From positions 8,972,507-9,036,506 of the forward strand of contig CM060852.1 of NCBI GenBank assembly GCA_030737835.1: a DNA stretch of 64,000 bases, in the 5' to 3' direction. The translations under genes and the position numbers were made by a program. This DNA is from Acorus gramineus (Eukaryota; Streptophyta; Magnoliopsida; Acorales; Acoraceae). How positions within the stretch are numbered: the first letter of the stretch is position 1; every line of letters starts with the position of its first letter. The notes beneath the pieces are model-generated. The model had not been told where the DNA came from, did not search any database, and worked only from the letters and a program-made list of their open reading frames with translations. This document shows, in pieces, positions 21,385 through 45,500 of this stretch.

Positions 21385-24300
21385 CTAATAATCCCGGTTC
21401 GGCGATGGAGGAAGGTCTCTGCCCTGTGTGTCCCTCGGCTGATAAGCATTACCACCCGCCATCCCTCCCTCATCTCGATTGGGCGGCGGCCCATAGTTGC
21501 TGGGCTGGTAGTCTCTGTTAGGCGGCATGCCCCCATAATCCCCTTTCGGCGGTGGCACGCCTCCCTGGTTAGGGTGGTTCTGGTAGCCCTGGTAACCCGG
21601 GTTAGGTGGAGGAGGACCCTGGTAACCCGGGTTAGGTGGAGGAGGGCCCTGGTAACCCGGGTTAGGGGGAGGAGGGCCTTGGTAACCACTATTAGGGGGA
21701 GGGGGGCCACCCATGTTGGGTTGGTTCTGGAAACCCTGACCAGGTGGTGGAGGTGGTGGACCGCCCATGTTGGGGCGGTTCTGGAAAGACTGGTTCTGCA
21801 TTGGAGGACCATCTCTGTTGTATTGGTTCTGGTTCTGCATGTTCTCCCGCCGCCTCTCAAAGTTCCTTGACCGGTCGAAATTGCGGGGACGGTCGTTGCG
21901 CCTGGACCTCTCGTTTGCTCGTGCGTTGTTTCGAACCCATTCCTCGTGGTATTTCGGGTCATATGGGGCAGCTACCCCGTCTATGAAAGGTTCGCCTGCA
22001 AAAAGAAAAGAAAAGAGCAGAATGAACAACAGAAGTATTATAAAAGCAACTTTTAAGCAAGAATCAGCTTGCAGAAAACAATGAACTTTATACACTAAAG
22101 ATGTTTTCAAGCACAGGCTATTAGATCATACAATTCAGTGGAGGAGGAAATTTATTCACAAAAATTGTGTATATGTACTGTGACAATAATCAAAGAAATC
22201 GCCGAAGATATACAAATTACGATATATTACTCTTAACTCAAACACTATTTAGTTGAGATCATCCCTGAATCTAGCTATCCAACTCCCTTGTCCTTCTATC
22301 ACTCGCACTTATATCATCCTCATATTGTTCGCGCTAGATCCCCTCTCACACTCCACTTCATGATTTCCTCTTACAAGTACAACTCAATCCCCTGTTCAGC
22401 CTTCTCGGATGAAGATCAACCACTTAAAATCTCAAAGTAAGAAGGTTGAATGATGGCCTACTACTCTGTCTAGAACAATATAAATCAGAAGAATACCTAG
22501 AGTTCTAGGGGAAAATGTGCAAAGACAAATCCCTATCAAAATCTCGAGAAAAATGAAAATTTCTCAGAATAAAAAAAAGGTTGTTTTATTTTAAAGGTTC
22601 AATAACTCTTGTTTTTCACACTCCTCTCAGAACCTTGATTTTGCTTTCAAAACACTCACAAAGGCCCTCCTCAAGGTCAAAAATCAAAATGCTCTATTTA
22701 TATGGTAAAATTAGATTTTCTGTTAACCCTTGAATACTTGTGTACACATCGCCAAAACATCAGGCGCTTTTAAAACTGTTAGAACATTTTAAGTAATCCA
22801 TAACATTTAGGTCTTAACACCAGTTATAACATTTAATATCACAACAAGAAGGGTTTATTAAAAAATTAAAAGGTTTAAATGCCTTTCAAACGCTCAAAGT
22901 TATAGAAACATGGGTTAACAACTTTTCCAAAAACATTTGAAAGCCCTTTCAAATATTCAAAGTCACATATCTTAGGGTTCTCTTTAAGCCAAAACTGTTT
23001 GATTGCCTTTCAGAAAGTTCTACAGGAACAAAGGCCAACAAAAAAAAAACATTTGAATGCTCTTTAAAACATTTGAAATCACATAATCCAAAGATCTTCT
23101 GTTTTTCACAGAATACTCAAACGTTCCATAAAGCATTCAAAAAGACAAAAACATGGGTATTTTTTCCGAAAACATAAAACCACTTGATAAGAATTTTAAC
23201 CGGACAACATTTTAGGCAAAAGATTGGATTTTCAATATGCTTATTTATTTTATGTGATTTATTTTGTGATGATGAACCTAGTGTCTTCAATTCTTTTTTA
23301 GCAGTCTTTGCTTGATTTTTCTTTGACATGCAAACCAGCATATTATAGACTCTGAAAATATTGAACTTAAACATTTTATCAACAAAATAAGCCAGTATAA
23401 ATAAATAATAAACTTAATCCTCCCAAACCTGGTGATCAGATGATCAACACCAGTTAACATCATAGACTAAGGATGTGTTTGATACACAACTAGAAAACTA
23501 CTTTAACCAAGGCTTTCAGTGAGCTACTAGAAAGGTTGACTGAACTCAACATCTGAAAGAATCAAGAATTTTGTTTGACAGAAGATGCGAAAGCTGCAAA
23601 ATCTAATTGTTCGGTAAATAATCTAATAAACAAGATTTTAAAATGTGTAAGGGTAGAAGTGTATATGTAACTACATTGAATAATTAAATTACAATGAATA
23701 ATTAGGGGTATTAACAAGTTTTTAGCTTTTTGAACATGGTTAAATATAGTTTCTTGAAAACTTTCTTTCATAGCCTATACGTTTTTTCCTTCAATATATA
23801 CTATAAGCTGGAATCCACTTTTTTTGAAAAGCAAACAGCAAAACATGTTTGATTCAACTTCCAGGTAAAATGGCTTCTTGAAATCTAGAATCTCTCAAAC
23901 GTGTTACCAAACAAAGGCTGTCATGAAAATTGAATTCTCCCATTTCATGCCTTTGTTTAGATCTCTCAATCCCGAAGTCTGAGAATCCAATAAAGGCTGG
24001 CATTCATACTCACCAAAAATAAACTAATACTTGCTGCTTTATGAGTAAATTGCTATGAGAAACATGCTAGAATTATAGATAATTTTTTAAGTAATAAGCT
24101 AAAAGTAACTTGAAATTCACTGTGGCGAAGGCTCCTTCATGTTGACCATGTATCCCATTTGTATCTTTCACCCCGTCACCTAGGATTTTCTTTTCTCTTT
24201 GAGGCATGGCCTTTTCTAACCCCTCTTTATATTTAGAGTGTACTTTTTTATTTTGAAAAGGAAAAATGTACATAATAAACATCACTTGGCTAGGAGACTG

Positions 24301-25585
24301 CTTTTTAACTAAAGAAAAAACTGGCATAGACCATGGCCATGATGAATGCACAGACATTGCACGCACTGCAATGAGTTTATGTTGCTAGAAATTGAGTATG
24401 TGACACTGAAACAGCCATGTCCACAGGTTTTTATTTATCAGAATTATAAAATTAAAAGTTTCATAGGCCTAGAAAGAATCTGAAAGTCCAGATTAGGTTA
24501 AAAATTGGACCAGGGAATGGAGATCCATAAAGACAGAGCTTTGAGGCTACTTCATTTCTTTACAAATAAGACTTTTTTGTTGAATACCAAAATTTTCTCA
24601 CACTGAAAATATTTCTCTCTTTTCTATCCTTCAATCCTATAATGGGTTAATGGACACATACACACTTATAAGGAGTTAAGGACAAGTGAGTTCAATAGGC
24701 CATCCTCTCTTCAGCAACAACACTTTCCAATAATGATGAACAACCATATACAAATTAATAAAATCCAACACCAAACAGTAGACACACACACACAATTCAA
24801 ACTCAAACAAACGAAATGCATAAACACAATATACAAAATTTTCACTTATAAACACATCTAAACATTAACAAAGCAAGCTACATATAGGCAAAAAAACATC
24901 TCCCAAAACACTCACCTCCATAATCTTTATTCTTGACGTCCAGATAAGAATCGGGAAGAACCCATCGGACTCTTGGAAGTTCTAAAACACACACACCAAA
25001 CAAACAAAACATTAAAAAAAGGAACAAAAAACAAATCCTCAATTGATTCGAGAGACCTACCCTTAATCTTGTACGAAAGTTCCTCCGAAACAAGAGCTCC
25101 AAAAGCAAAGTAGTGCTTCGTTGACACCGAATAAATTTTCATTCTTGCATCTTGTTCACTGCAAAGAAAATGAACCGATTTGAAAAACAAAAATAAAAAG
25201 CAGAACCAAAAGAAAAAAAGAGAAGGACCAGAAACCCCGACCTTCCGACGACCTGGGCGAGGGTCTTGATGTAGCTGTCGATGATCTCGTCGCGGGTGGC
25301 GTTCTCTTCGGGGGGCTCCATCACCACCAGCCAGTGCTCGAAGTCGCACCCGTCGAGGAGTATCGTCTCCTTCGGGGGACGGTTTCGCAAGTTCGGCGAC
25401 GGATCGTTCAGGGAGGAGGTCGTCGTCCGCGTCGAGAAGCACCGGAGGCCGACGGACGGCTGAGGGGGGAAGCGGAGGGCGACCGTTACGAGGGGGCGAA
25501 GGCGGAGGAGGGGGGAGGAGAGGCGGGAGAGGGGGAGGCGGAGGAGGGAGCGGGAGGAGATTAGGGTTCGGCAGAGAGTCGCCAT
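21385..25585 (-). CDS. MORF8: MORF8/RIP1-like organellar RNA editing factor, four exons
   Basis: MORF (RIP) proteins bind PPR editing factors and are needed for C-to-U editing in plastids and mitochondria; MORF8 is dual targeted. Exons: 25585-25242, 25158-25061, 24981-24916, 21995-21385; phases join to 372 residues. The N-terminal ~55 residues are Arg/Ser/Leu-rich, a transit peptide. The MORF box (about 75-172) shows [76 protein letters not shown] and DYGGEPFIDG. Then comes an Arg/Asn-rich segment ([14 protein letters not shown]) and a Pro/Gly-rich tail of [10 protein letters not shown] and NMGGPPPP repeats, as in Arabidopsis MORF8. Intron 3 is 2.9 kb. A paralogue with identical exon phases and lengths for exons 1-3 lies upstream at 27995-32944. 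Confidence 0.93.
21585..21700 (-). repeat. 30-bp tandem repeat encoding [10 protein letters not shown] units
   Basis: On the plus strand the unit GGTAACCCGGGTTAGGTGG followed by AGGAGGACCCT recurs about every 30 bases, three to four times, within exon 4 of the MORF8-like gene. It adds ten-residue Pro/Gly/Tyr units in frame and is a likely site of length variation. Confidence 0.85.
22850..23150. repeat. Degenerate repeats in MORF8-like intron 3
   Basis: Phrases such as AACATTTGAAAGCCCTTTC, TTTCAAATATTCAAAGTCAC and AACATTTGAATGCTCTTTAA recur several times with a spacing of about 60-90 bases. Together with the GC-richer block at 22250-22450, this looks like a degraded transposon in the 2.9-kb intron. 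The family is not identified. Confidence 0.45.
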
Positions 25586-27994
25586 GGAAGACGGTCGGAG
25601 GTAAAACCCTAGATAGGGAAGAGGTGTGTCTATCGGTCCTGATTTAAGAGAGGTTTTGTAGGAACATTTACAGAACAGTCCCTCGAAATTGTTTGATTGA
25701 CTGAATCATCCCCTCCTCGTGAATGGTGAAGCTCACCCTCTTTCGTCCGTTGATATGGAATTCGCGGTCGTGATAACATTTAAAAAGTGACATTTTGTTT
25801 TGCTGAGTATGATAGCAATATCTATTACTTACTTGTAAAAGAATGATGTAATCAGTATTTTAAATTTTTTATTATCTTTAATTAAATTGTTTAATTACTA
25901 ATATAAATAAATTTATTTAAATTTTAAAATTTTAAAATCATTAAATGGTATGATATAATCTAATAAGATTATGATTTGTTTAATTACTGATCTATTATTA
26001 TCAGATTTAGATATTTATTCTATTTACTTATTAAAAGAATTATGTAACTCAATATTTTCATTTTCTTTTTTATCCTTAATCTATTACTTACTTATTAAAA
26101 GAGTTATGTAATACAATTTTTTTATTTCCTTTTTTATCCTTAATTAAATTGTTTAATTACTAATAAAAATAGATTTACTTAAATTCTAAAATTTTAAAAT
26201 AATTAAATGATACGAGCTGATCTAATAAGAATATGATTTGTTTAATTACTAATCTATTATTATCAGATTTAGATAAATCATAAAATTTTAAAATATCAAA
26301 ATCAGATTTTATTAAATCATATAAATATATTTTTATTTTAAAATCAATAAATCATATATGTATATTCTAATTTTTTAATTTTGAAATTAAATATATTCAC
26401 CATATATATTCATTAAATTTTATTTCCATGAATATGTTTTTTTTGTAATAGAATGACAACCCTTATGAACTAAAATATATAATATAAAATGTACATATAA
26501 ATGTGAATATAATATACCTTATAAATCTATATATTTATCTATTGTCTATTATTTATTTATTAAAAGGATTATGTGATACAATATTTTTATTTATCTTTTT
26601 ATTCTTTAAATAATTAATTAATTACTAATATCTAATAAGTTATTATTGAATAAATAATTATTTCAATATAGATAAAAAAAATAAATTTATTTATGTATTT
26701 TAAATTATCTCATTAGAGAACGTAGTATAAAAAAAAATTGTTTGGTTAAATATGAATAAATTATGGAAAAGATTAAGGAAAAATGATAAAAAAAAATATC
26801 TTAAAAATACCCAAATCAGCTGTTTTTAAAATTGTGCATAAAAAAACCTCATTTCACAATTTTAAAAATACAAAAGACTAACTTATTATTATTCTTATGT
26901 AATTAGATCCATAACATTTTTCTAACTCTTGTTAGATTATTTCACACCAAAATCTTATTTTTCCTGTAAAACAATAATATCTCTATATGACCCAAATCAA
27001 TCCCTTTAGAAGTTTTGCTATTATATATTATATTGCGTGTTTTTTATATATATCTTACCTGATGTTATTTATTATTTTTTATTATGTATAATCATAATAT
27101 ATAATTTAAATATATTATACCCCAATACAACAAATTATATTTTAGTATTCTAAATTTCTATTCACTTTTTTTTTTTTGGGTTTGGCTATTCACATTTTTT
27201 ATGGCATCATTTATACATATCCATTTTTATAAAGAAACATCAATAATTAATAGAGTTCATTATAAAAAAAACTCAAATTATATTAGCACATATTTCACAA
27301 AATCCACGTAAGCACAAAAAATTTAGAGTAAAAAAATTTCTACATGAAAATGCGTGAAATACATTAACAAAATTAAAATGGTGAAATATTTTAACAAAGT
27401 TAAAAAGTATGAAATATGTTAAATATCTATATAAGGGTATGTTAGTATTTTATATTTCTAAAATGAGACTTTTTTTATACAATTTAAAAAATAACTGATT
27501 TAGGTATTTCTAACTTTTACGAGACTTGTTTTGTCATTTTTCCGAGGATTAATGGACTTAGTTAATAAGTAGGGATTGTGGCACCCTAAAATCATGAGGA
27601 ACCCATTTAGACATTATAACGTACCTTTAAATGGGATGTGTGGATGATAATGTAATGGAGGCGGCTCAAGAAAAACAATCAGACAAAGATTATCATAATC
27701 TGAAGAAGTTTGTATAGGATCAGATTCATTTTTTTTTTATTGTGAAATACATATGAGGATAAAACAAATTAATTAATTGAAACACAAATCTCTCACTCTT
27801 TGTAACATCAGTGCAAAACATCACTGTGAAAAAGATAAAGATGAAACTACATTATGACTATCACCAGGCACACCTCTTTTTGTATCCATGCAGCCTTCCG
27901 AAATCAACTCCCATCCAAATGTGGGCACAGCAATGACCTCTTCGGTTTCCTGCTCAGATCAGTCCTCCAAAGCCAGCATTTTTGCTGCGTGCAT
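25586..27994. other. Very AT-rich spacer between the two MORF8-like genes
   Basis: The first few hundred bases should include the promoter of the downstream MORF8-like gene. The rest is extremely AT-rich and includes the duplicated segment listed at 25821-26640. The last 200-300 bases are probably the 3' UTR of the second MORF-like gene. No gene is seen. Confidence 0.6.
25821..26640. repeat. Tandem AT-rich repeat, period about 260 bp
   Basis: TCTATTACTTACTT occurs at 25821 and 26080, each time followed by GTAAAAG/ATTAAAAG, a TTTTTATTATC/TTTTTATCC stretch, TTAATTAAATTGTTTAATTAC and GATTTGTTTAATTAC. A partial copy starts at about 26019 and another at about 26545. The copies are diverged, so this is an old local duplication. 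Confidence 0.7.
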
Positions 27995-30900
27995 TTAGAC
28001 ACTGTATCCCTTATTTTGAGCACATCCATTGACCTGATCATGCATCTCCCTACCCTGAAAAGATCTGCTTGACACACCCTCCAGGTGTCTATTGTTATAT
28101 ATATTTTGGTTCGGATAATACCTTGTGTTGGGTGGTGCTCCATCTCTCCTGTGCGTGCCACCATTGTTAGGAGGCATGCCGGAGTTCAACATTCCATTGT
28201 TTGTGAATCCGTGATCAGGTGTCGGAGGACTGTTTCTGAAAGGGGGGGTGCTCTGTCTGTGGAAGTACTGGGACTCCCTCGAACCCCTTTGTTGCATGCC
28301 TTCATTTTTGCTCTGAGAATCTCGATATGGTGCATCTCTGGATGGAAAACCACCATATCCATCTGGCACACCGCCCATGTTAGGAGGTCCCCAATACGGA
28401 GGCATAGCACACATGTTGGGAGGTGGCCATCTCGGAAATCCACCAGCCATGCATGCGACGGGAACAAAGAACACACACACACCCCATGTAGGGGAGAATG
28501 TGTTCCACATAGAATGATCTTGGAAACCTTCATATGGCACTGGAGAGCTGAATCCAAGAGGCACGGTGCTCTGTCCATGGTAGTTTTGATCATACCAACG
28601 TGGTATTTGGTTACCATAGGTCCAATATGGCATGCCTCCAGTTGGTGCCATGTGATTTGGGTGATACGCTTTTGACATTTGATTTGGGCATTCCCCTTCC
28701 CCTCTTGGCATGTGGTCTCTGTCACTCCAATGCCGTGTGTCCCTGCGATGGGGATCTCTATATGGCATGTCCCAGTTAGGTGGTGGAACTTCCCTACTGG
28801 TCGCTCTCCCCATGTTAGCTGATGCAGTGTTTCGCACATCGTGCCTCTGGAAGTTCTGATTGGGAACTTGATGACCATCTTTAGAAGGCAGCCTACTCAT
28901 TCCGTCGAAGTTCTGGAATTCCTGATTGGGTTTTGGAGGCTGGTAATACCCACTGACTGTCCTGTTGTTGTGATAATCCCCTCTTGGCAGTTGGTTCTTG
29001 TAATCCATGTCTGGCATGCCACCACCACCTGACTTGAGCATGTTCCCATTTGATATGTTTGCCTTTGTTGTTGTATCTCTGTTAAGTTTTGCTCGTCTAG
29101 AATACGAGGTATCAGGCAGAGATCCATCTCTATTTTGCACAGCACCCAAATTGGGGACCCCCATGCATGAGGACATGTCAGACCAAGTGTTCCCTGCATC
29201 ATAGGTGTTCCTTGCACCATAGTTCTGCGATATGCGATTAAAAGGTGTGGCACTTTGACTGTCATTGTTTTGCCACTCCTGACGGGGCAAATGAGTTGTT
29301 ATACTTCCTCCTCCATTAATGTCTTTGAGTTCCTGATCAAGCGTAGGAGGCGTGGTGCTCCGTTCATTGCTGTTCTGGAGTTCCTGATTGCTGGTTGGTG
29401 AGGTTCCCTGTTCACCATGACCCACTGCATCTTGATTTTTCACAGATAAGGTGCATTGTCCATCTTGGATATGGATCTCCTGACTGGGGAAATGTGGTTT
29501 GGTTGTGTCACCATCATTATTCCGATTTTCTTGATTGGAGGTAGGAGGTGGATGATCATCCTTCTTTTGATCCTCGTGATCCTGCACATATTGCTTTTGC
29601 CTGTCAAGATTTCTCAACTGGTCAGCATTATGGAGTTTATTATTGCTCTCAGTGCCTTCACCATCCATTTCATTTTTATCGTTATCATCTTCATTATTGT
29701 CTTTTACCCATCCCTTATGGTACTTGGGATCATAAGGAACAGCTTTCCCATCAAGAAAAGGTTCTCCTGCCAAAGTTAAAAACACAATCGAAAACCTAAC
29801 AGCATGAGCATAAATATTTATGATGGATTGACAATAAAGATGCGAACACATTTGACAATGGAATCAATGATCAACCATGACATGCACTAAATTTTCAGCT
29901 TCCAAAACCTCCAGCATATCAAAAGTATCCAACTAATGAAAATTATGTTAGATAATAAAACATAAGTCGCACATCATAATGCAGTTGAAGGACTTTAATA
30001 AATCAAACAGACTTAAAATCAAGAAACATAAATCAAGGAAGCCTAGTACAATAAAACATAATTAGATAGACATAAAAAAAAGGCTTGACAACTTTATTAT
30101 GTTGTGCAACCAAATTCGTCTGGCTTTTATGAATCAAGCACGGTGACATACTTGATTTTCCAACTCACTCTTTGAAATTTGTTCATAACTTTTCACATCT
30201 TCCAAATTGTAGATCGTTCTTTCCTCATAAAAAAAATTTAGGTCTTTCACTCTATCTCACCCATGCACAGTGAAGACACCAATCAAAGACAAGTACTGTT
30301 TTTTTTTTTATTCACTATTCATGTTATAGAGAGACAAAATAGGTAGGCATTCAAAGTAGAAACTTTTTTTTTTTTTGAAATTGAGTACTAAATTTGAAAT
30401 CTTGTAACCACGTATGTGATTCTTGGCAAAACTTAGCATGTCAAGCCCCCCTCCCCCTTCAAATTCAAATATCTAAATGATTGACATGATAAAATAAAAT
30501 CTAAAAAACTGAGCTGAGTCAATGCCTTGCATTCTTACCCCCATAATCTTTGTTCTTTTTATCTGAATAAGAATCAGGAAGAACCCAACAGACTCTCGGA
30601 AGACCTATAATGCATTCAAAATATAGTCATGGCCAAAATCATTTAAGATAAATATACATTGTCAGATAAAGCTAAGCAGGGATGTACTCCTGATCTTAGA
30701 TGTAATCTTCTCAGATACTAAGCATCCAAAGCCAAAATAGTGCTTTGTTGACACTGAATAGATAGATTTTTTTGCTGCTTCTTCACTGCAAGATATAAAG
30801 ACAGAAGATTAGAAAACTAAGCAGTAAAAGAAAGATAATAATTCAATGCCACTCCAATTCATCTTGCAAATTATACATTCAGGAATTAATTCCAAGTATC

Positions 30901-32944
30901 TGCATTAACAGATGTGACCGAGATTAGAGCATGAGCACAGGCGAAGGACACCTTTCAAGAAGCAGAACAAGTAAAATTAAGGAGCTTGTGCCAGTCAACA
31001 CTGGGGGCCATCCACAAGGAAGTGCAAATTATCATAGGAAACAATGAGAGAAGCTATATTTAAAATCACAGCTCCTATTTACCTACATCATCATTAGAGA
31101 GATGCCAACCCAAAGCAACAAAACCTACCTCACACGATCATCAAAGTCCAAGGCTCCAACAAATAAAATCCTCACCTATACTCTCCAATAAATCATTAAA
31201 TCCTTGATAATTTTGTTTCAACCCCCTTTTGTTTTAGGATAACTACAAAACTAGGAAATACAATAAGAGTTATTATACGCCAAAATAAACTTAATGGCTA
31301 CTGGATGAGTAGCAGGTCTATCAATTTTATTTTCTAAAAAAGAAAGAAAGAAAGAAGTCTCTAAAGATAAAAGACCCATTCCCTAGTAACCTCAGAATAG
31401 ATCTACTACCATAGTAGTATACAAAATTGCAGTTCAGCCAAAAGTGACAACTAAATTCCACGCTGGTTATATCGTGAATCTTTTAGACAAACTCCTTAAC
31501 GAAATAGAAGGCCCAGTCTACTGTGAAGTGTTATTTGATAGGAAATTATCATTTTACATATTCAGGCTAAGAAACTAAATCCCATTCATTCCATAGTTGT
31601 CTGGGCGACGACGCCTAGGCGGTCCAGATGGACCTAGGGGACCGCCCGCCTGGCCTGTCCAATCCCTCGCCTAACCTCAACATAAAAGAAAGAAAAACAC
31701 TATTGAAAGATTAAAACATAACCTACCCTACGAGACAACGGTGCATCGAATTCTCCTGGTCCCAAGTGAGTCTCTATTGATTTTTTGTCTCTCCCTCCTA
31801 TCTCTCCTCAAGATTTATGAACTCCTATCTCATTCTCCCTCAATCTCTCCCCCTATTCTCCTTCTCCAATGCCATTAGGGTTAGATTATATTAGTTTTGT
31901 CGAAAATGACATACACCAATAAACTACATACATGTGCTCTTTACTTATAAATAACATTTTTCATTTTAAATAGCATTCCTGCAAAAATTAAAAAATGATT
32001 GATAGATAAATAACTTTAATATAATTACCAATTTAAATAATAAAATCATAATTAAGAACCGCCTCGGCACACCTAGGTGGCTAGGCGGTTGGCCACTGCC
32101 TAGGCTCGCCTAACCGCCTAGACAACTATGATTCATTCCAACATGGATGCCCTTGGCTCTGACATGTATCTTGGGAGGAGTAACATGAAGCTTAGAATTT
32201 TGGATGCATTCAATACTTCCAAATAAAAGGGGAATTGATCCATGGTCGATTCTCTAACAGATAAACAGAATCCATGCAGATGAGGGTAAATGAAAGTGAT
32301 CAAGGGGTGACACTCACACCAGAGTTGACATCAGATAAAACATACTGAATGCAGTTCGATGCAACACCAACATAGAAAGGCATCTTGGCTCCAAAGTCAC
32401 CACAGATGCAAGTATGAGCAAAACATTCTATTCTAATCACTGATGCATTGAGCATCACCTGTTTGTTGTTTTCCCCCTCTAAAGACAACAATGTGACGAG
32501 TTGGAACATGCAAGAAAGAAAACCAAATAACTGAACAACCATAAACAGAGAAACAGAGGATGAATGAAAAATGTGGGATTTCAAAAAGGAAGGCGAAAAC
32601 CTTCCGAGGACCTGAGCGAGGGTTTTGACGTAGCCGTCGATGATCTCGTCGCGGGAGGGGTCCCCCTCCGGAGGCCGCATCACGACGTGCCAGTGCTCGA
32701 AATCGCAGCCGTTCAGCGCCATCGTCCGGCTCGGCGGGTTGGGGTCACCATGATTGGGAGGAGGAACCGAATACAGGTGGACGGAGGAGGAGGAGGAGGG
32801 GGGCGGAAGAGGGAGGCGGAGGTCCGTCGGGGAGGTGAAGGAGGGGTGGAGATGGTGGACGGAAGTGGAGGAGGTGCGGGTGAGAGAAAGCCATCTGGAG
32901 AGGGAGGCGGTGGTGATTAGGGTTCTCCCGCGCGCGAGCGCCAT
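27995..32944 (-). CDS. MORF8-like paralogue with very long disordered C-terminus, four exons
   Basis: Exons: 32944-32601, 30785-30688, 30604-30539, 29766-27995; 759 residues. Exons 1-3 have exactly the lengths (344, 98, 66) and phases of the neighbouring MORF8-like gene, so the two arose by tandem duplication. The MORF box is kept but altered: [92 protein letters not shown]. Most MORF8 proteins end after about 200-250 further residues, but here exon 4 runs about 590 residues of Asn/Asp/Gln/Pro/Gly-rich sequence with degenerate QNxxG/PNMGGV motifs. A short hydrophobic insert ([15 protein letters not shown]) comes from a GT microsatellite. Exon 4 could contain an unspliced intron, but the uninterrupted frame argues for coding. 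Predicted plastid/mitochondrial transit peptide at the N-terminus. Confidence 0.85.
31592..32130. mobile_element. hAT-type MITE, 539 bp, with perfect 8-bp target-site duplication
   Basis: Terminal inverted repeats CATAGTTGTCTGGGCG and (reverse complement of the right end) CATAGTTGTCTAGGCG bound the element; GC-rich subterminal words CGCCTAGGCGG and ACCGCCTAG are also inverted. ATTCATTC is present directly on both sides (31584-31591 and 32131-32138). The interior is AT-rich and non-coding. It sits in intron 1 of the MORF8-like paralogue and is absent from the sister gene, so it inserted after the duplication or was lost there. Confidence 0.92.
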
Positions 32945-34513
32945 TGGTGGGTTTTTTACTTGCCCTCTTTAAAACCCTGCGCGTAAAATCTTACATACAC
33001 CCCCGAAATCATCAACCATATGATGTTGAGTTTTTGCCTTCAGAGATGTACATAATATAATATGAAGATGATAATAAGCCTGGTTACATTTATGAGTGCT
33101 CTAACCTCTTACACTCATGTTTTTTTTAAGTTTAAAATATAGTCCTATATACCTTGTTAAAAATTCAGTGAAATATATACCTCATTAGACATTATATATA
33201 TCTTATTAAATATTTTTTTACTCTTATTAAAAATGAATTCAAAAAAAAGTACATGTGAATTATAGAAATGACTACGTACAAAATTATTCATAACATTATT
33301 TTTTATTCAATTTTTTTTATTTTTTAGAGCATATCTTATTTTATATCTTCATAATAAATGTATATCACAATTCATTGAAAATAAATGGGCTGAATGTCAA
33401 TATGTGTGTGTGTATAAACATATATAAAGCTTTTTTAAAATTTATTTATATATAAATAATGTTTCTTAATTTGGCTTTTATTTATAATTTTACTATCTAA
33501 TCATCATTTTACATTAGGTAGATGCTGATTTTAATAAATCATTCCATTTCATTTGTGACCAGGGCTTATCATGTATTAGACATGAGAGGCGGAGCGGAGT
33601 GGACAATATGGATGAATCGGACCCGGGTGGTGAGGTCCGTATGTTTGTCTCTGTCTAACTGGATGGCGTCCTGCAAAATATCATCTGACACCCAAGTCAG
33701 GTGGATAGATATCTAAGAGCATCTACAATGTATATGTTAGCTAAACAAGATGTTAAAGTGTCATGTCAGCACTTTATACTTCAACTATACACTCATTTAC
33801 TATATCCCTATTTAGTTGGTTGTTGTTGCTCCAATGGACTAGCTAAATAAACTAGTCAAACCAATAGTGAGCTCCACCTCTCCACCCACTCAATCTTTCA
33901 AATGTATTTTTTATTAATTTTTTAAAAAGAACTATCATGTGGAGCCCACATTTGACTAGCTAAAACACTAGCTATAGTTAACATGAAATATAACACCTAA
34001 TACGTGGGGTCCACATTTAGCTGCTCCAAGGTTCTTTTAAAAAAGAGTTTTTCACATACTCAATAGAGAGAGCTGATTCTTTATTTATAGTGTAGGTGGC
34101 CAGGTCGGTGATGGATTTGCAAGATCTGGTCCCAGAATTTTTTAGTTGTGAGATGCAAGTGGGCCGACAGGCCAGACTTGTGAACAATAGGTCGGTCAAA
34201 CCACGGGCCATGATTAAACAGATCATGGACCTCGATTAATTAGGTCGTGGACTGTGAACACATGGTGCGCTGCCATTTATAAAATAGCCCCTACAAGAGG
34301 TATCACATGGCAGACCACCCCTAATTGGTTCCGGTCCTTGTTTATTAAAAACATTGGCTTGAATCAGAGAGTCCTCTCATGAAATGCAATCTTTTTTTAA
34401 AAAAAAATTATATAATATATTAGTGAAGATATAAAACAAATTGTGTATCAGCAGCACACACCTAGGGTGACCCCTCACAGAGTCACAGTACACTCATCCA
34501 GGACCGTCCACTC
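32945..34513. other. Intergenic region upstream of the miR2275-like cluster
   Basis: Contains the promoter of the MORF8-like paralogue on the minus strand at its left end. A GT microsatellite lies at about 33399-33411. At 33718-34030 the words GAGCATCTACAATG, TAGCTAAACA and TTTAGCTGCTCCAAGG resemble a PIF/hAT-like MITE, but the ends do not match cleanly. No gene is seen. Confidence 0.5.
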
Positions 34514-34520: not shown

Positions 34521-34655
34521 CAGGACAATCTTGTGCGTTCAAAAATACCCAAATAAAAGTAGTACCTGCTGTGCAGAGAATATCAAGGTACAAGAGCAGT
34601 TGTGGACTTGCAGTCCATGCCTTTTTTGTTAACCTTGACCCTCTTCAGAGATGGA

Positions 34656-34662
34656 TATAAAT
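34656..34662 (+). promoter_or_regulatory. TATA-like box upstream of the microRNA cluster (proximal)
   Basis: TATAAATATAGAGAG occurs 54 bases before the first hairpin. If used, transcription would begin about 20 bases before the hairpin base. Which of the two TATA boxes is used cannot be told from sequence. Confidence 0.4.
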
Positions 34663-34709
34663 ATAGAGAGCTTCTGCTGTTTGTTCAAGCATTGTATTTT
34701 TGAGGTTTT

Positions 34710-34786
34710 GAATGTGAGGATTGGAGGGAGCCAAACCATTCTTTCCTTCAATAGACTGGTTTGGTTTCCTCCAATATCTCACCTTC
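34710..34786 (+). ncRNA. MIR2275: pre-miR2275-like hairpin 1 (intact)
   Basis: A 77-base inverted repeat. The 5' arm GAATGTGAGGATTGGAGGG... pairs with the 3' arm ...CCTCCAATATCTCACCTTC around a loop of about 16 bases; TTGGAGG/CCTCCAA and CCAAACCA/TGGTTTGG are fully paired, with a small asymmetric bulge at the ATA of the 3' arm. Bases 34760-34781 (22 nt, starting with T and ending ATCTCA) are identical to rice miR2275a-3p as I remember it. miR2275 is a 22-nt microRNA that triggers 24-nt phased siRNA production in anthers. Strand, arm order and 22-nt length all fit. Confidence 0.88.
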
Positions 34787-34832
34787 AAAGGTTTTTCACT
34801 CTCTTTTGTTCTCATACAACATGTGAGAAGTC

Positions 34833-34905
34833 GAATGTGAGAATTGTAGGAAACCAAACCTTCTAGCAATAAAAATGGTTCGGTGTTCTTCAATAACCCA
34901 CCTTC
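34833..34905 (+). ncRNA. pre-miR2275-like hairpin 2 (degenerate)
   Basis: Same layout as its neighbours: 5' arm GAATGTGAGAATTGTAGG..., 3' arm ending ACCCACCTTC. The segment at the mature position (34879-34900) differs from hairpin 1 at six of 22 positions, and several arm pairs are broken (T/T, A/C, A/G). It is probably a decaying copy that no longer yields normal miR2275, or one yielding a diverged variant. Confidence 0.6.
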
Positions 34906-34957
34906 AAAAGGGCTATCTCTGTCACGCACGCTCGCATGGCATTTTTAGCGGGGTTTT

Positions 34958-35036
34958 GAATGTGAGAATTGGAGGAAACCAAACCAATGAGTAGATCGGA
35001 AACAAATGGTTTGATTTCCTCCAATATCTCACATTC
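34958..35036 (+). ncRNA. MIR2275: pre-miR2275-like hairpin 3 (intact)
   Basis: A 79-base inverted repeat with the best pairing at its base: GAATGTGAG with CTCACATTC, then TTGGAGGAAA with TTTCCTCCAA, and CAAACCA with TGGTTTG, around a loop of about 20 bases. The mature-position segment 35010-35031 differs from hairpin 1 at one base only (A for G at position 5). It is the third unit of a polycistronic-looking cluster with hairpins every 123-125 bases. Confidence 0.85.
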
Positions 35037-35831
35037 ACTTTGTCAGCCAACTTAAACTGGGTGCCTCGATTTTTAAGCATTCTTGTTGTGGAAATATTCA
35101 CTCCAAACCATGACACAAACACACTGATTTGTAAAAGAAAGATTGTCATTATGGCAGTTAACAAACAAAATATGCTTTATTTTCAAGGTTCTACAAATAT
35201 GAGAATTCCCAAGATTGCTTTACTCAGGCAGACACCTGACCTTTTGGTTAATGTAGTTTATAGAACTTTATCAATTGCCAACATACACATCTTTTCTTAA
35301 AAAATTTCAATTACATACTAGATGAATAAAAAACTTTATATCTTTTCTTGTAATTTATAAATTATTGATTATTAATGAATATATTTATTACAACAAGATG
35401 ACACCGATGTTCAATTCTAATTAATCCAACTATTGAATTTGTTTAGTTCAACTATAAGTTAGATTTTTTAAACATTATCAAATACTACCTTTAATCAACA
35501 AAAAAAAAAAAAAAAAAATCAAATACCATGCACAACCCTTGATTCAGGGAACTAGGTGGAATTGGAATTACAATTCCTGTAACCATTCTATTCACTATTA
35601 GAAATATGAATGTGAAAATAAGAAATTCACCCCAAATCCCTTCTTTTTCAAATTCCAATTCCATGCAATTCCAATTCCACCCAATTCCCTGAGTTCAAAC
35701 AAAGTTTTTCATTTCAAGTAATCCCCAAATACATGACTACTCAAACATATAAAATCTGCATTGAAATTGCAATAGTATGATCATTCACAAAGCACACATA
35801 TTCATAATTGAAACCAAAGAACAAACACCTC
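35037..35831. other. Region between the microRNA cluster and the ATP synthase gene 3' end
   Basis: No gene seen. A poly-A tract lies at about 35501-35518. The piece at about 35540-35700 reads like MITE sequence, with GAATTGGAATTACAATTCC and CAATTCCAATTCCACC in opposite orientation. The right end is the probable 3' UTR of the ATP synthase gene. Confidence 0.5.
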
Positions 35832-36461
35832 TCATACAGGCAAGACCTTCTTGACAATCTCGTCTGAGAGGGCGGCGATCTGCGAATCGAGGGCGGCAAT
35901 GGTCTCCTCCTTCTGCCTCTCCAACGCCGCAAGCGCCTCCTCCAGCTCAGCCTCCACCTTCTTCCGCCCCTCCGCGAGCTTCGCCTCCACCTCCACCGAC
36001 GTCTCCTTCTTCATCTGATTCAGCGCCGCCGACACCTCCGCGCGCGCCGCCCTCATGATCGCCGCCGCCTGCTCCTCCATCTGCTTCACCTCCGACGACG
36101 TATCCTTCACGTCGCCGAGCTTCTCGCGAATGGAGGCGTCGCGTTCGTCCATGAACTTGCCGAGAGGGGTGAAGTAGGTCTTGTCGAGGGCGACCATGAG
36201 GAGGAGGAACTCGGCGGCGATGGAGGGGAGGGTCAGGTTGAAGTCGAAAAGGGCGGCCTTTTCCATCTCGGCGGCCATGGCGGCGCTGACCGGGCTTAGG
36301 GCGATGGCGGCGGTGAGGGCGGCGGATTTGAGGGAGGGGAAGGAGAGGGGGGTTTGGGTTTGGGTTTGGGTGGGGATGGGGAGATGGGGTTTGGGGGTGG
36401 GGGGTTGGGGATGGAGGGAGGGGAGGAGGTTCTTGGAGGAGGCCATGACCATGTTCGCCAT
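35832..36461 (-). CDS. ATPG: Chloroplast ATP synthase subunit b' (CFo subunit II), nuclear-encoded
   Basis: A 209-residue, single-exon precursor. With plastid-encoded subunit b it forms the peripheral stalk linking CF1 to CFo in the thylakoid membrane. The N-terminus (about 1-65) is a bipartite targeting peptide: a Ser/Pro-rich stromal part and a hydrophobic, Ala-rich thylakoid-transfer segment ([20 protein letters not shown]). The mature protein starts near [27 protein letters not shown], the membrane anchor, followed by [19 protein letters not shown] and a long alanine/glutamate-rich coiled coil ending [11 protein letters not shown], as in other plants. The start MANMVMASS was preferred over an in-frame ATG 45 bases upstream because it begins a normal transit peptide. 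Length and domain order are typical. Confidence 0.94.
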
Positions 36462-38647
36462 TGTTGGTGAGGATGAAGAGAGTGTCTCTCTCACACACAC
36501 AGTCACTCACTCAGATGAATTTGGTGTGGGTATTGGTTGAAGAGAAAGAGTGAGGGGGATGGAATGGAAGGAAGGCTATCCTCATATTTGCCACACATTT
36601 TGATGTGGTTGGGTTTGGGAGGGGGGGACTATTTTTTCTGCCTCTAGTTTTTGCTTTAAAAAAAAAAACAAAAATTTGAATTTGTGACAATTTAGATGAT
36701 ACATATTTTAAAGGAAATCAAATACATAGTTTTATGAATAAAAAATTGTATATTCTGATGAATTACATGGATACATATTATTAGAATAGTGACATGAACT
36801 ATTTTTTAGCTTAACTAGTCTAGTATAAATAAAGAATAAGTTATTTTTATTTATTTAATCTTAAAGTTATTTTCGTTAAGAAACGCTTAATTACTCATAC
36901 ATAAATTGTGGATAAAATATAAATAAAAAATTATAAAAATTCAAAATTGATCTAAGTTGATAATGTTTAGAAAAGATAAAAATGGAGAGTGGTTTACACA
37001 CGCTTATGCATACATGCGTTGGGCATTCTTTGACGCACTTAACACTTATTTTTAAAGGAATTGAACTTTAGTCAAGTCAATAAACACCTCCCACCTATAC
37101 GAAAGAGGTCAATGGAAATAGATTTGATAGAATAATACAATTTCATGAAGAACCGAAAAACTAATACTTATTTATTCTCATCTATTCTGATATAACTATA
37201 CTTATTTAGTCCTTGCAAGGCAAACGAACTTATTTATTTATTTATTCACCCCTATTCTCAACTATTCTCAACATATTCCAGTACCCACAAACATGTGCTA
37301 AAAGTAAAGCAAAGAATGTGTTAAATCAAATGACTCTGGGCATGCAAAGTACAACGTCGGCATCCACGTGGAACGGACGTCAACTAAAAATAACGAACCA
37401 TCCGAATCAGAAGCCAACCTTCATGGATCCCCCCTCTCCCCTTCTTCCCCAGCAAGGCAGAATCAATCAATCCTTTTTTATTCTCTTTCCCAAAACCATT
37501 AAAAAAAGGGCGCGTCTATCCCCACCAATCGTTTTTCTTACCCCACCGATCAAAAAAAAAAAAAAAAAAAAAAACGGTGTTTGGCTGTTCCCACCAATCC
37601 AGATCGACTGAAATTGGTCGCCATTTCAGATTTTGGACGACCGAAATTGGTCGCCATTTTAGGTTTTGGGCGACAGTAATTGGTCGCAATTTCAGGCTTT
37701 GGGCGACTGTAATTGGTCGAACAGGGTTCAAAACTATATCTACCTATTTTTTGTAAACAAATAAATTTTTGGGTTTATCCATCATATTCTACATTTATTC
37801 TTTTATCCAAACAACAGCTAAGGGGCCGAAAAAAATGTAAGTAGGTATACTTTCAATTAATTCAAATTTTTATAGAAAAATATCTTATTAGACAAATATA
37901 TATCATTTTTAAGCTTCGTGTGAATTCGTAGTTAAGAGGATTCTTGGTTTGAAAACAAAAAAAACCTATCAGTTGATCCAAACACATTATATATTTGGCT
38001 TTTGAAAATTAGTCCGTCACTTATGTAAAAAAAATTGTTCTTATATTCTACATTTAAGAATAATAATTGATTCTCCTTACATTACAACTCAGACTTGGAG
38101 TGGTATGAAGGATTCAAGGAAGATATACGTCATATGCTTTTGATTGAGGAAAATTTTATAGCACCTTGAACGATTTTGTGATCCAAGCTGATAGCTGGTG
38201 TGGATCGATCACAGAAATGATAGCATGATATGTCATCTTGTGATTGGTATGGGTCACCAAATTAGTTAAATTTTTTGTCCAATTGAAATCACTGAGATCC
38301 TATCGAGTAGTCAAACAATCAAATTTGTTCTGGATCCTGTGTTTTTTTTTTTTTTAAATCAATTTGTTCTCTTCATGTGTCCATATATGTGTAAATGTGG
38401 TGTCAATTTCTGCTCTGGTTGATTGATTCTTCATCTGATATGGTCATACAACCTTGAGTTGGAAACACTGGTCAGAAACTCCCTGATGATCAAAATGTAT
38501 ATCAATCTTCCTGTTTTCCAAGAGATGCATGGGTTCTTCTTATTTTTTGATCTAATTGTTGACTGCATTAACTTTGATATAAAAAACATGTAAATTAATG
38601 CACCTAATAATAGTAGATATATGATTGGTTGTGTACCTTGTGGTCAG
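36462..38647. other. Divergent spacer between ATP synthase b' and U11/U12-25K-like fragment
   Basis: Left end: promoter of the ATP synthase gene (minus strand). The rest is AT-rich with a tandem repeat at 37605-37722 and a poly-A tract at about 37551-37574. I searched for 5' exons of the following U11/U12-25K-like gene (a ubiquitin-like half ending in ISW before a donor) and found none. Confidence 0.55.
37605..37722. repeat. Tandem repeat, unit about 33-35 bp, four copies
   Basis: Units of the form GACCGAAATTGGTCGCC plus ATTTTAGGTTTTGGGC recur four times, drifting to GACAGTAATTGGTCGCAATT and GACTGTAATTGGTCG. Each unit contains a small palindrome around GACCNAAATTGGTC. It is non-coding as far as I can see, although one antisense frame is open through it. 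Confidence 0.8.
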
Positions 38648-42504: not shown

Positions 42505-45500
42505 TTAGAAGACATCAGGATGAAAGCGGCCGGGAATGGAGCTGCTTTGTTGAGCCTGCTTAAGATGCATTGAAAGAGTGTAGTTGTTGACCTGCAAACC
42601 AGAAAAAGAATATCATATAAAAAAAAAAATTCATTCTAAAGTGCCTCCTCTTTGGATAAACACGAAACCTGCAATACCTCAAGAGTTCTCAGTTGTTCTT
42701 GATATTGGGTCACAAGCTGCTTCAGATGCTGCACTTCTTGGTTCCTCTCGTCGTAATCTTTCTGACGCTCGTGCTGAATCGTCACTGCTCGCTTCAAGAT
42801 GTTGTTTTCTCGTAGTAGTAGTTCAACTTGTTCTTTCAGAACCATATTTTCCTAAGCAGCAATGAAATATGTGTCAATATTTAAGTTTGTTAATATAGGA
42901 GAATTTTATTTCAATAAACCCCCAAAGTTAGGAGACGAATACATATTTCATATGAGGACTCCAAGAACACCTTGTGAAAGTTTTGTGCAGCATCCGTGCT
43001 AGCATGTGCTAAGATGGATTTTTCCAACGCCTCCAGCGCTCTGGAAGCACGAGCTCTGGCGTCATCAATGTCAGACGCATTCATCATTTCTCTAACAAAT
43101 AGCTCCACCCACTCAGATCCATCGGTTGGCAAGTTTTCCACACCAGATGAATTCTCGGCAGCCGTCCCATTAACCCCATTTGTTAGTATATCTGCGACGT
43201 TTCCACAAGAAACATAGTATACAGGCACGCATCATCAATCACAAATTTTCATATGATTATGAAAATTGTCAATGTAATGTAAATCACATTGATTGCCTTG
43301 CATTTTTAAAATTTCAATGATACAACAATATATAATATGATAAAACACTCCATTACTGCTTTATACTCCAACTTGACTCTCCCTAGGGTTCAGAATATCT
43401 AATCAACTATGTTTGATTCCCAAGATGACTAAATGGTTTCAGATGCAAGAATATGAACATCCACAAAAGATGGTGAGCCAATGATATGTAATGCCCGCGC
43501 TTCAAAAAGAAAAAAGAAAAAAGAAAAAGAAAAAAGCACAGTGATAAATGGAAGCTGAATTAATTAGAAAATTTGACAATCAAGAGCATAAATTATGCTG
43601 TGAAGTGTAGCTGGATTTTCTTTGTTTTAAACTTTTCAAGGTGGACAAAGTAAGTTTAATTCCTGGCCACTACCATCTAAGTACCTAACTAGTTATCTTA
43701 TCAGGTTGCAACTCAAATTCAGTCAGCAAAATAAAACTCATTGGATGTGAGTGAAGTTTTAAAGAGTTAAAGATGAGGAAGGCTTCATATTTGGGCAAAC
43801 AGAAAGACGTTTTCTGGTATTTACAAGTTATTAAAAGAAAAAAATAAGTCACAATAAAGCATCAATGAGACATAAAAATGCAAGTATTACCCCCCTGCGA
43901 GTTACGGAAATGATGGAAACCATCCCTCAAACACTTAAGGAAACCATCCTAAATTCAGCTCAGGAAAGAAAAAAATTTAAAAGGAAGAATCATGTGGTGG
44001 TGAAATGACCACACAAGTGGTTTATATAGTTAATCAACCAAGCATGTACCATTGGGGATTTTTTAAAAAGAGAAAGGAAAAAAGAAAGGACCTTGTAGAA
44101 AAATCTAGATCTCACATGTGTATGAACGAATGAATGCAGATTGACCTACCCATTAAACCCATATTTAAAAATCATTTTGTGGCATACAACATCCCCCCCC
44201 CCCCCCCATACATGCTGGGTGAAATTTTCACCTGAGTATAAGGAGTGCGGTCTTCATTATAATTTTGTTTATTATAATTACGTGTCATGTCTGTTACAAG
44301 GTCCTTTAATTATTTATGTATTTGATGGAATGGTAGGCATCATGCCTCATTATATTAGAAAGGAAGAATGCCCAATACATTAAACAAATAAAGCAACAAA
44401 ACAAATATACTGTTGGACCAATACATTAAACAAATAAAGCAACAAAACAAATATACTGTTGGACCTAGGTTGGTCCAACAGTAGAGGAGAATTCTACTGG
44501 AGCACCAACCTGACCCCAAACATCATAACGCTACTCTTCTCACCCATATACAGAACCCAACTCACCCCATCACGAAACCACCCCAACACTACTTTATTTA
44601 TTTATTTTTTATATCAGCTAATGGTGCATATTTTGGTCTTGGTTGATTAATTATATCCAATATGGTAATGTCATAATTAACTCCAAATTGTGGAGTGATG
44701 TACCCAGTAAATGTGCCTGCAGGACAAGATTACCAAGAAGTCATACAAGTTAGTTGAGCAGAGTACAGATCTTCTAAGTTTGGTCAACTCAGATACATAT
44801 GATATGAAAACGACTATGTTTATAAACAATAAGTATTGTTTTAGAGAGAGAAATCTTTGCAACAAGGAAGAAATGAGCAGCACAATGTGAAAAAAGATGA
44901 ATGCTTATTATCCCAACCAAAGGTTATTCAATCATGATTGTAGATGAGTAATATGAAACTCTAGATTGTCTGACTGACATGTACTACATAGCTGGACAAT
45001 GGGATAAGATTTATTTATTGTTTGTTGTGCCTAGAGATGGGAAGTTGGATCCTTTACAGTAATCAGATAAGTACACCACAAAAGGAGAAAGAGGAGAAAC
45101 AACAAAGGAAAGCAAGTCATCTGTGACAGTTTAGAAACAAAAAACAATAAATCAACTAAATATTATAAATTTTAAATGACCATTAGAAGGCAGCCAAAAT
45201 CCAATGTGAAAAACAAGTTTGTTAAAAAATTATTTAGACAGAGAACAAATAAGCATTAGCTGACAGTCACAATGCCATAATATAAATTAAAATCCATTAC
45301 TGGAATGGTTAAACAAGAAAATATAGAAGTCCAGGGGAAAAAAACACTACAGAACAGAGATCAAAAATAAGTGCTAAGAAAATAATAGCACATACACGAA
45401 AACAAAAACACTGAATGAACCAAATAAAGCATGCATTGCCACATAAAGGCATATATGGAAGAATGCATACTTTGTAAAGGTAGCTGACCATCTGCTCCAT

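Follow-up and report, generated by a model that had tools for sequence, protein, structure and literature searches.

The stretch of DNA analysed here, referred to as the window, is 64,000 nucleotides long (C6:8972507-9036506) and contains three tandem hairpin copies on the plus strand between positions 34705 and 35041. Successive 5' arms begin at intervals of 123 and 125 nt, in agreement with the spacing of 123-125 bases given for three repeats in an earlier note on this DNA. The intervals between 3' arms are 119 and 131 nt, and spacers of 45 and 51 nt lie between the copies. The features of the locus are as follows.

34540-34665, plus strand: candidate promoter block of 126 bp, found by genome search, with a putative function
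34656-34666, plus strand: TATA box, located 54 nt upstream of the first arm; its sequence TATAAATATAG occurs nowhere else in the window
34705-34791, plus strand: MIR2275 hairpin 1, intact; RF03896 score 77.7 bits; fold -47.6 kcal/mol, z -7.51
34717-34737, plus strand: predicted 21-nt miR2275 star of hairpin 1, from predicted pairing with two-base 3' overhangs
34760-34781, plus strand: predicted mature 22-nt miR2275 of hairpin 1, TTTGGTTTCCTCCAATATCTCA; identical 22-mer in three hairpins on C10
34828-34910, plus strand: MIR2275 hairpin 2, an apparently decayed copy; RF03896 score 45.7 bits, under the cut-off; z -1.67
34953-35041, plus strand: MIR2275 hairpin 3, intact; RF03896 score 69.6 bits; fold -39.9 kcal/mol, z -7.05
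34965-34985, plus strand: predicted 21-nt miR2275 star of hairpin 3, from predicted pairing
35010-35031, plus strand: predicted mature 22-nt miR2275 variant of hairpin 3, one base from that of hairpin 1

On either side, the closest genes that could be recognised lie on the minus strand: a MORF-type exon (32300-32968) and the gene for the chloroplast ATP synthase b' subunit (35832-36506). The cluster is thus intergenic, and transcription, if any, would proceed in the direction of the 3' end of that ATP synthase gene. Since the locus codes for no protein, it would be missed by protein-based annotation. Two genes for MORF-domain proteins (organelle RNA editing factors) are located in a row on the minus strand (24927-25705 and 32300-32968), and two open frames read upstream (21385-22125 and 27995-29863) have a GEPF-DG motif in common, as judged by eye; the latter frame encodes 622 amino acids and has no Pfam match. 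Downstream of the cluster is an inverted repeat (35544-35692) with arms of 29 nt that are 90% complementary and 91 nt apart, perhaps a small non-autonomous element. Other repeats in the window are a tandem array of 3.5 copies of a 33-bp unit with 87% matches (37605-37719) and a 46-bp sequence duplicated exactly (44372-44465).

Scanning the whole window with the Rfam models at gathering cut-offs yielded exactly two matches, both to MIR2275 (RF03896, cut-off 60.5 bits) on the plus strand and corresponding to hairpins 1 and 3. The earlier description of the locus as miR2275-like is thereby supported, as it is by published miR2275 sequences that are close to the predicted miRNAs. At a permissive threshold, hairpin 2 reached 45.7 bits. 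On the opposite strand, copies 3, 1 and 2 scored 58.6, 47.3 and 32 bits; such minus-strand scores are to be expected of near-palindromes. All four values are under the cut-off. Hairpin 1 also had a sub-threshold match to MIR1507 on the plus strand (RF04164, 34705-34791, 32.6 against a cut-off of 73 bits), probably due to common hairpin composition, and the miR2118/482 family was absent among the Rfam matches listed at the cluster. The predicted stability of hairpins 1 and 3 was far above chance, with none of 200 shuffled sequences folding as well in either case. The earlier note's expectation of stable folds did not clearly extend to hairpin 2 (-16.3 kcal/mol, z -1.67), for which 11 of 200 shuffles were as good. 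Because the minus strand of copy 3, taken alone, folds somewhat better than its plus strand (-45.5 versus -39.9 kcal/mol), the strand was assigned from the Rfam score, the sequence of the miRNA and the promoter. Tandem MIR2275 hairpins on one strand were observed both here, with three copies, and on C10, with six, and the three hairpins in the window would belong to one common transcript.

The earlier note equates the 22-mer at 34760-34781 with rice miR2275a-3p. The 22-mer of hairpin 3 differs from TTTGGTTTCCTCCAATATCTCA by a single change at position 5, confirming the one-base difference reported previously, and no other sequence in the window came within 5 mismatches of these two 22-mers. 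The A at position 17 of the miRNA is bulged in the predicted pairing of both intact hairpins, so that, given the usual two-base 3' overhangs, a 22-nt miRNA is placed opposite a 21-nt star. Asymmetric miRNA/star duplexes are described in excerpts of PMC5902766 as giving rise to 22-nt miRNAs, the length that triggers phasiRNAs. Among the sequences given in excerpts of PMC6852985, zma-miR2275a-3p has 1 mismatch to each of the two predicted miRNAs, bdi-miR2275a has 1 mismatch to that of hairpin 1, and osa-miR2275d has 3 mismatches to each, while the star of hairpin 3 differs at 3 positions from the 21-nt ata-miR2275b-5p and at 2 from an Eragrostis tag of the same register. The hairpin 3 miRNA also has 1 mismatch to Pto-F50, a 22-nt small RNA that was called novel in a poplar flower study (excerpts of PMC3646847). 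The miRNA position of hairpin 2 has 6-8 mismatches to the six published sequences compared, as they appear in excerpts of their sources. The exact 22-mer of hairpin 1 was not found in the main texts of the literature searched.

We searched the assembly from which the window is taken (398.6 Mb in 137 contigs) for other copies. Matches to RF03896 were located in at least four places, based on the 61 best candidates that were scored: the window, C10, C4 and C9. Contig C10 carries six MIR2275 hairpins on the plus strand (10828013-10828751), all above the cut-off, and two on the minus strand about 3.1 kb from this group, one of which is above the cut-off. The two matches on C4 and the one on C9 fall below it, so that at least nine matches exceed the cut-off in the genome, two of them in the window. 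Hairpin 1 has the top score among the 61 candidates (77.7 bits). No match to RF03896 was obtained in 14 control genomes, the 8 with known names being bacteria. A pattern search for the 22-mer with at most 3 mismatches retrieved hairpin copies on the same four contigs; the exact hairpin 1 sequence is present in four hairpins, one in the window and three on C10, while the hairpin 3 variant had no exact copy elsewhere among the hits of this search. The locus is thus one of at least three paralogous MIR2275 clusters in the genome.

The arms of the MIR2275 stems covary. For this analysis, we used 14 of the 15 hairpin-like copies; the one omitted, on C4, has 6 mismatches and 7 unpaired bases. Another copy on C4, in which 11 nt of the miRNA arm are missing, falls outside the 15. 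With arms shuffled between hairpins as a control, and with counts that are not strict probabilities since the 14 copies are related, standard pairs occupied 371 of 406 stem cells (shuffle mean 354.3, reached in 0 of 1000 shuffles) and two-sided changes were seen in 19 cells (mean 6.9, 0 of 1000). Stem pairs changed on both sides numbered 9 (mean 4.4, 11 of 1000), and the 25 extra pair types were not clearly unusual (mean 21.7, 73 of 1000). Of 29 stem positions, 28 are paired in each of hairpins 1 and 3 and 22 in hairpin 2, the minimum of the 14 copies, the other 13 having 25-28.

Hairpin 2 looks like a decayed relic. Its aligned partner is hairpin 4 on C10, which has kept the exact 22-mer and from which it differs at 6 of the 22 miRNA positions, and only hairpins 1 and 3 look able to yield miR2275. 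We also considered the better-preserved 5' arm of hairpin 2 as an internal target or decoy and found no support for this, since its two arms have not diverged to a significantly different extent from the C10 paralogue (3/29 versus 7/31 changes, Fisher p 0.30). The three copies in the window are alike in their arms, while their loops and both spacers are indistinguishable from shuffled sequences. The 50 nt on the 5' side of hairpin 1 resemble the spacer that precedes hairpin 3, a similarity reached by none of 500 shuffles, which suggests that the duplicated unit took in some upstream sequence.

A DNA search of the genome with the 126-bp block upstream of the cluster gave matches in three places only, each on the 5' side of MIR2275 hairpins: the window itself, C4:30740530-30740628 (88% identity) and C10:10827855-10827962 (84%). 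The TATAA core is kept at the point of the TATA box in all three clusters, and from the usual spacing between a TATA box and the start of transcription, the transcript is predicted to start near 34690. The presence of the block at all three clusters may reflect recent common descent instead of function. E-boxes upstream of the cluster (34259, 34304 and 34597) were not informative; the promoter of rice pri-miR2275b contains E-boxes, yet showed no EAT1 ChIP enrichment according to excerpts of PMC5825165. A scan for promoters of the bacterial type was set aside as irrelevant for a plant nucleus.

With six plus-strand hairpins above the cut-off and three exact copies of the 22-mer on C10, and with one of three hairpins in the window decayed, the locus might be a true MIR2275 paralogue that has fallen silent or is being lost, with the trigger supplied by the C10 cluster. 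We consider this rather unlikely, however, since hairpin 1 outscores every other candidate, hairpin 3 passes the cut-off too, the stems of both are nearly fully paired, and the promoter block has been kept in the window together with its TATA box. A working MIR2275 gene is therefore the preferred reading, although its contribution to the trigger pool may be small because the exact 22-mer would also be produced by the three C10 hairpins.

Folded as a whole, the cluster reaches its minimum energy as a long nested hairpin that joins the arms of copy 1 to those of copy 3 (-140.1 kcal/mol, z -11.13, with 0 of 100 shuffles as good). For the segment 34686-35060, the form with three separate hairpins is 8 kcal/mol weaker (-133.8 versus -141.8). 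Three copies are thus present, as claimed in the earlier note, but the minimum-energy fold does not place them side by side as three hairpins. The clusters on C10 and C4 likewise prefer the nested fold (-321.2 versus -299.5 and -192.0 versus -171.2), and for the 5' arm of hairpin 2, the 3' arms of copies 1 and 3 are better partners (-36.4 and -34.1) than its own 3' arm (-18.3). Stems shared by neighbouring miRNA hairpins are described for Brachypodium in excerpts of PMC4053937. These results raise the alternative that the transcript works mainly as a nested long hairpin formed by arms 1 and 3 and is processed as a small inverted repeat, which we regard as quite improbable. Folding of growing transcripts indicates that hairpin 1 would stay local until the 3' arm of copy 3 has been made (ends 35010 to 35025), and nested alternatives are unavoidable where arms are alike. 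For the same reason, either form could free identical strands. That the cluster is a transposon-derived inverted repeat merely resembling MIR2275, as tandem inverted repeats within an AT-rich intergenic stretch might suggest, is rejected on copy number, the at least four places found in 398.6 Mb being far from the hundreds of loci that the earlier note associated with a transposon family, and is further opposed by scores above the curated family cut-off, covarying stems, window copies that are alike in their arms while their loops and spacers are indistinguishable from shuffles and a promoter block private to MIR2275 clusters.

The pattern search for the complement of the 22-nt miR2275 identified 98 sites with at most 3 mismatches, compared to 6 for the reversed, 10 for the scrambled and 0 for the reverse of the scrambled pattern. 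Twelve of these sites are located inside MIR2275 hairpins. The complementary sites that the earlier note had anticipated elsewhere in the genome are accordingly in excess, with 86 outside the hairpins against 6 and 10 in the controls. For analyses of the flanks, 85 of the 86 sites were used and 9 with flanks identical to another were dropped, leaving 76, while the controls were uncollapsed. Clustering on flank similarity (E 1e-8, at least 80 nt) sorts the 76 sites into 49 groups; under a stricter rule there are 30, two of which hold 26 and 16 sites. Among the 49 group representatives, the information content was 0.64-2.5 bits at the 22 site positions and at most 0.17 over 40 nt on each side; part of the height within the 22 nt follows from the ceiling of 3 mismatches, which has less bearing on the excess over controls and on the uneven mismatch profile. 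The confinement of the conservation to 22 nt agrees with the pattern reported for 24-PHAS loci, in which the target motif is the sole conserved element (PMC6367383).

The mismatches are unevenly distributed among the 76 sites, with 1 at each of the miRNA positions 12 and 14 and 23 at position 9. Positions 9 and 10, which adjoin the slice point, are mismatched in 23 and 14 of the 76 sites, and this may impair slicing. When compared with the genome's own miR2275 variants, 57 of the 76 sites score 4 or less, and in the stretches fetched only 1 of the 76 is contained within an open frame of at least 150 codons. Complementary sites are clustered, as illustrated by ten at C1:17.13-17.20 Mb, and some of the site groups look like dispersed repeats. 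The 86th site (L102, C114:40748-41769) is a perfect 22-nt complement of a C4 miR2275 variant; it has no homology to C4 past the 22 nt, did not fold into a miRNA-like hairpin and is probably a target site. Outside the cluster, the window contains no target site scoring 7 or less for the miRNAs of hairpins 1 and 3, and two weak sites (6.0 and 6.5) for the degenerate sequence of hairpin 2.

Two short motifs are over-represented upstream of the candidate 24-PHAS sites, as counted in distance windows that were picked after viewing the positions, so that all of the following figures are optimistic. AATGCAT precedes the site by 140-190 nt in 15 of 76 cases (mean 2.81 in a rotation null) and in 10 of 49 and 8 of 30 group representatives, counts attained by 0 of 1000 rotations in each of the three sets. 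TATA[AT]A is present 65-125 nt upstream in 30 of 76, 20 of 49 and 12 of 30 (null means 14.07, 9.2 and 5.15; 0, 1 and 2 of 1000). Residual homology between the site groups may add to these counts. ATGCAT and TATA[AT]A occurred together, each in its window, at only 4 of the 76 sites, and a cruder test with TATA nearer to the site gave 7 versus 3.5 among the 30 representatives. The candidate sites are the loci L015-L101, and at those with AATGCAT (for example L020, L056, L080, L087, L095 and L097) the motif often has TGTGA or TGTGT after it; AATGCAT or ATTGCAT combined with TGTGA or TGTGT was present in the near upstream region of 13 of the 76 sites, in the far upstream region of none and downstream of 2. 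Ten-mers from the MIR2275 promoter showed no clear enrichment in the 600 nt upstream of the candidate sites (17 of 76 versus 12 of 76 when reversed). The promoter block itself was rejected as an element of the 24-PHAS candidates, the DNA search returning only the three clusters. It is conceivable, though doubtful at present, that there are two separate cis-codes, one being the 126-bp block private to MIR2275 clusters and the other a module of AATGCAT and TATA[AT]A at candidate 24-PHAS loci. If so, the trigger and its targets would be activated via different promoter elements, and 24-PHAS genes would be predictable from DNA alone.

Two Dicer loci of the genome have a first RNase III exon of DCL3 type. 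There were 18 matches to RNase III domains, corresponding to eight loci or pairs besides single matches. Six paired loci were fetched and four were compared with solved structures, among which there is no DCL5 reference, and on this scale DCL3 was the best match for both exons tested of L111 on C6 (102.4 bits for the first RNase III exon, next best 74.7, and 118.8 for the second) and for the first RNase III exon of L106 on C9 (117.3 bits, next best 89.1). The second exon of L106 was ambiguous (DCL4 103.1, DCL1 100.3, DCL3 99.4), L107 on C3 matched DCL4 (118.9) and L108 gave no clear class. L108 (C4:17748000-17750600) is nearly identical to L109 (C4:17893700-17896300), a Dicer-like gene in opposite orientation about 145 kb away, and by eye the two resemble a recent inverted duplication. 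As far as their sequences go, the two DCL3-type genes fit either DCL3 plus DCL5 or a duplication of DCL3. The 24-nt Dicer is DCL5 in grasses, while DCL3 has been proposed for eudicots (PMC6367383).

Identification as MIR2275 follows from the Rfam covariance model, the bulged 22/21-nt duplex, the covarying arms and the excess of complementary sites. We are highly confident in reading the locus as a polycistronic MIR2275 gene from a flowering plant that would act through the whole mechanism from transcript to 24-nt phasiRNAs. From what is known of the family, we infer its transcription, processing, slicing, phasing and timing in anthers. The TATA-box promoter (34540-34665) would drive a short non-coding Pol II transcript with three hairpins, starting probably near 34690. 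From the two intact hairpins, 1 and 3, DCL1 would release 22-nt miR2275 paired with 21-nt stars, the 22/21 length being set by the single bulged A at miRNA position 17. Loaded in an AGO1, the 22-nt miRNA would slice non-coding 24-PHAS transcripts at the complementary site, RDR6 would copy the cleaved RNA into a double strand, and from this a DCL3/DCL5-type Dicer would produce 24-nt phasiRNAs in meiotic anthers. The locus thus very probably makes a 22-nt trigger of 24-nt meiotic phasiRNAs, which upholds the trigger part of the "master trigger" proposed earlier but not a role as sole master, given at least three paralogous clusters.

The locus is of interest since miR2275 starts the 24-nt phasiRNA pathway of meiotic anthers. 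Disturbance of this pathway leads to conditional male sterility in maize (PMC6367383) and likewise in durum wheat (PMC12337324). Together with its paralogues and the predicted sites, the locus provides parts of the pathway that can be tested in this genome, namely triggers and targets along with candidates for the Dicers and for promoter elements. Specialists might take up the census of target sites and both of the candidate promoter elements.

Among known systems, Brachypodium MIR2118ab, MIR166hj and MIR9483ab (excerpts of PMC4053937) are similar in that arms pair across neighbouring hairpins and alter the fold of the whole locus. There, however, two precursors overlap on one common arm, whereas here three complete copies are separated by spacers. 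The miR2118/482 and miR11308 families are likewise 22-nt triggers of reproductive phasiRNAs, some of them polycistronic, but they trigger 21-nt phasiRNAs and are sequence families other than miR2275 (excerpts of PMC8368212). Closest are the MIR2275 clusters themselves. Polycistronic or tandem clusters are known from litchi, strawberry, eudicots and grasses (PMC6367383), and with such clusters already described across flowering plants the novelty of the present one is low. A promoter block common to three clusters was not found described in the excerpts consulted on known MIR2275 clusters. In other respects the locus is like those of litchi, strawberry and grasses (RF03896; PMC6367383), having the same hairpin model, a 22-nt miRNA on the 3' arm and a bulged duplex, with several same-strand hairpins spaced by tens of nt in low-copy non-coding loci and complementary sites throughout the genome whose flanks are unconserved. 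It differs from them in nothing of kind, two of its hairpins being intact and one decayed.
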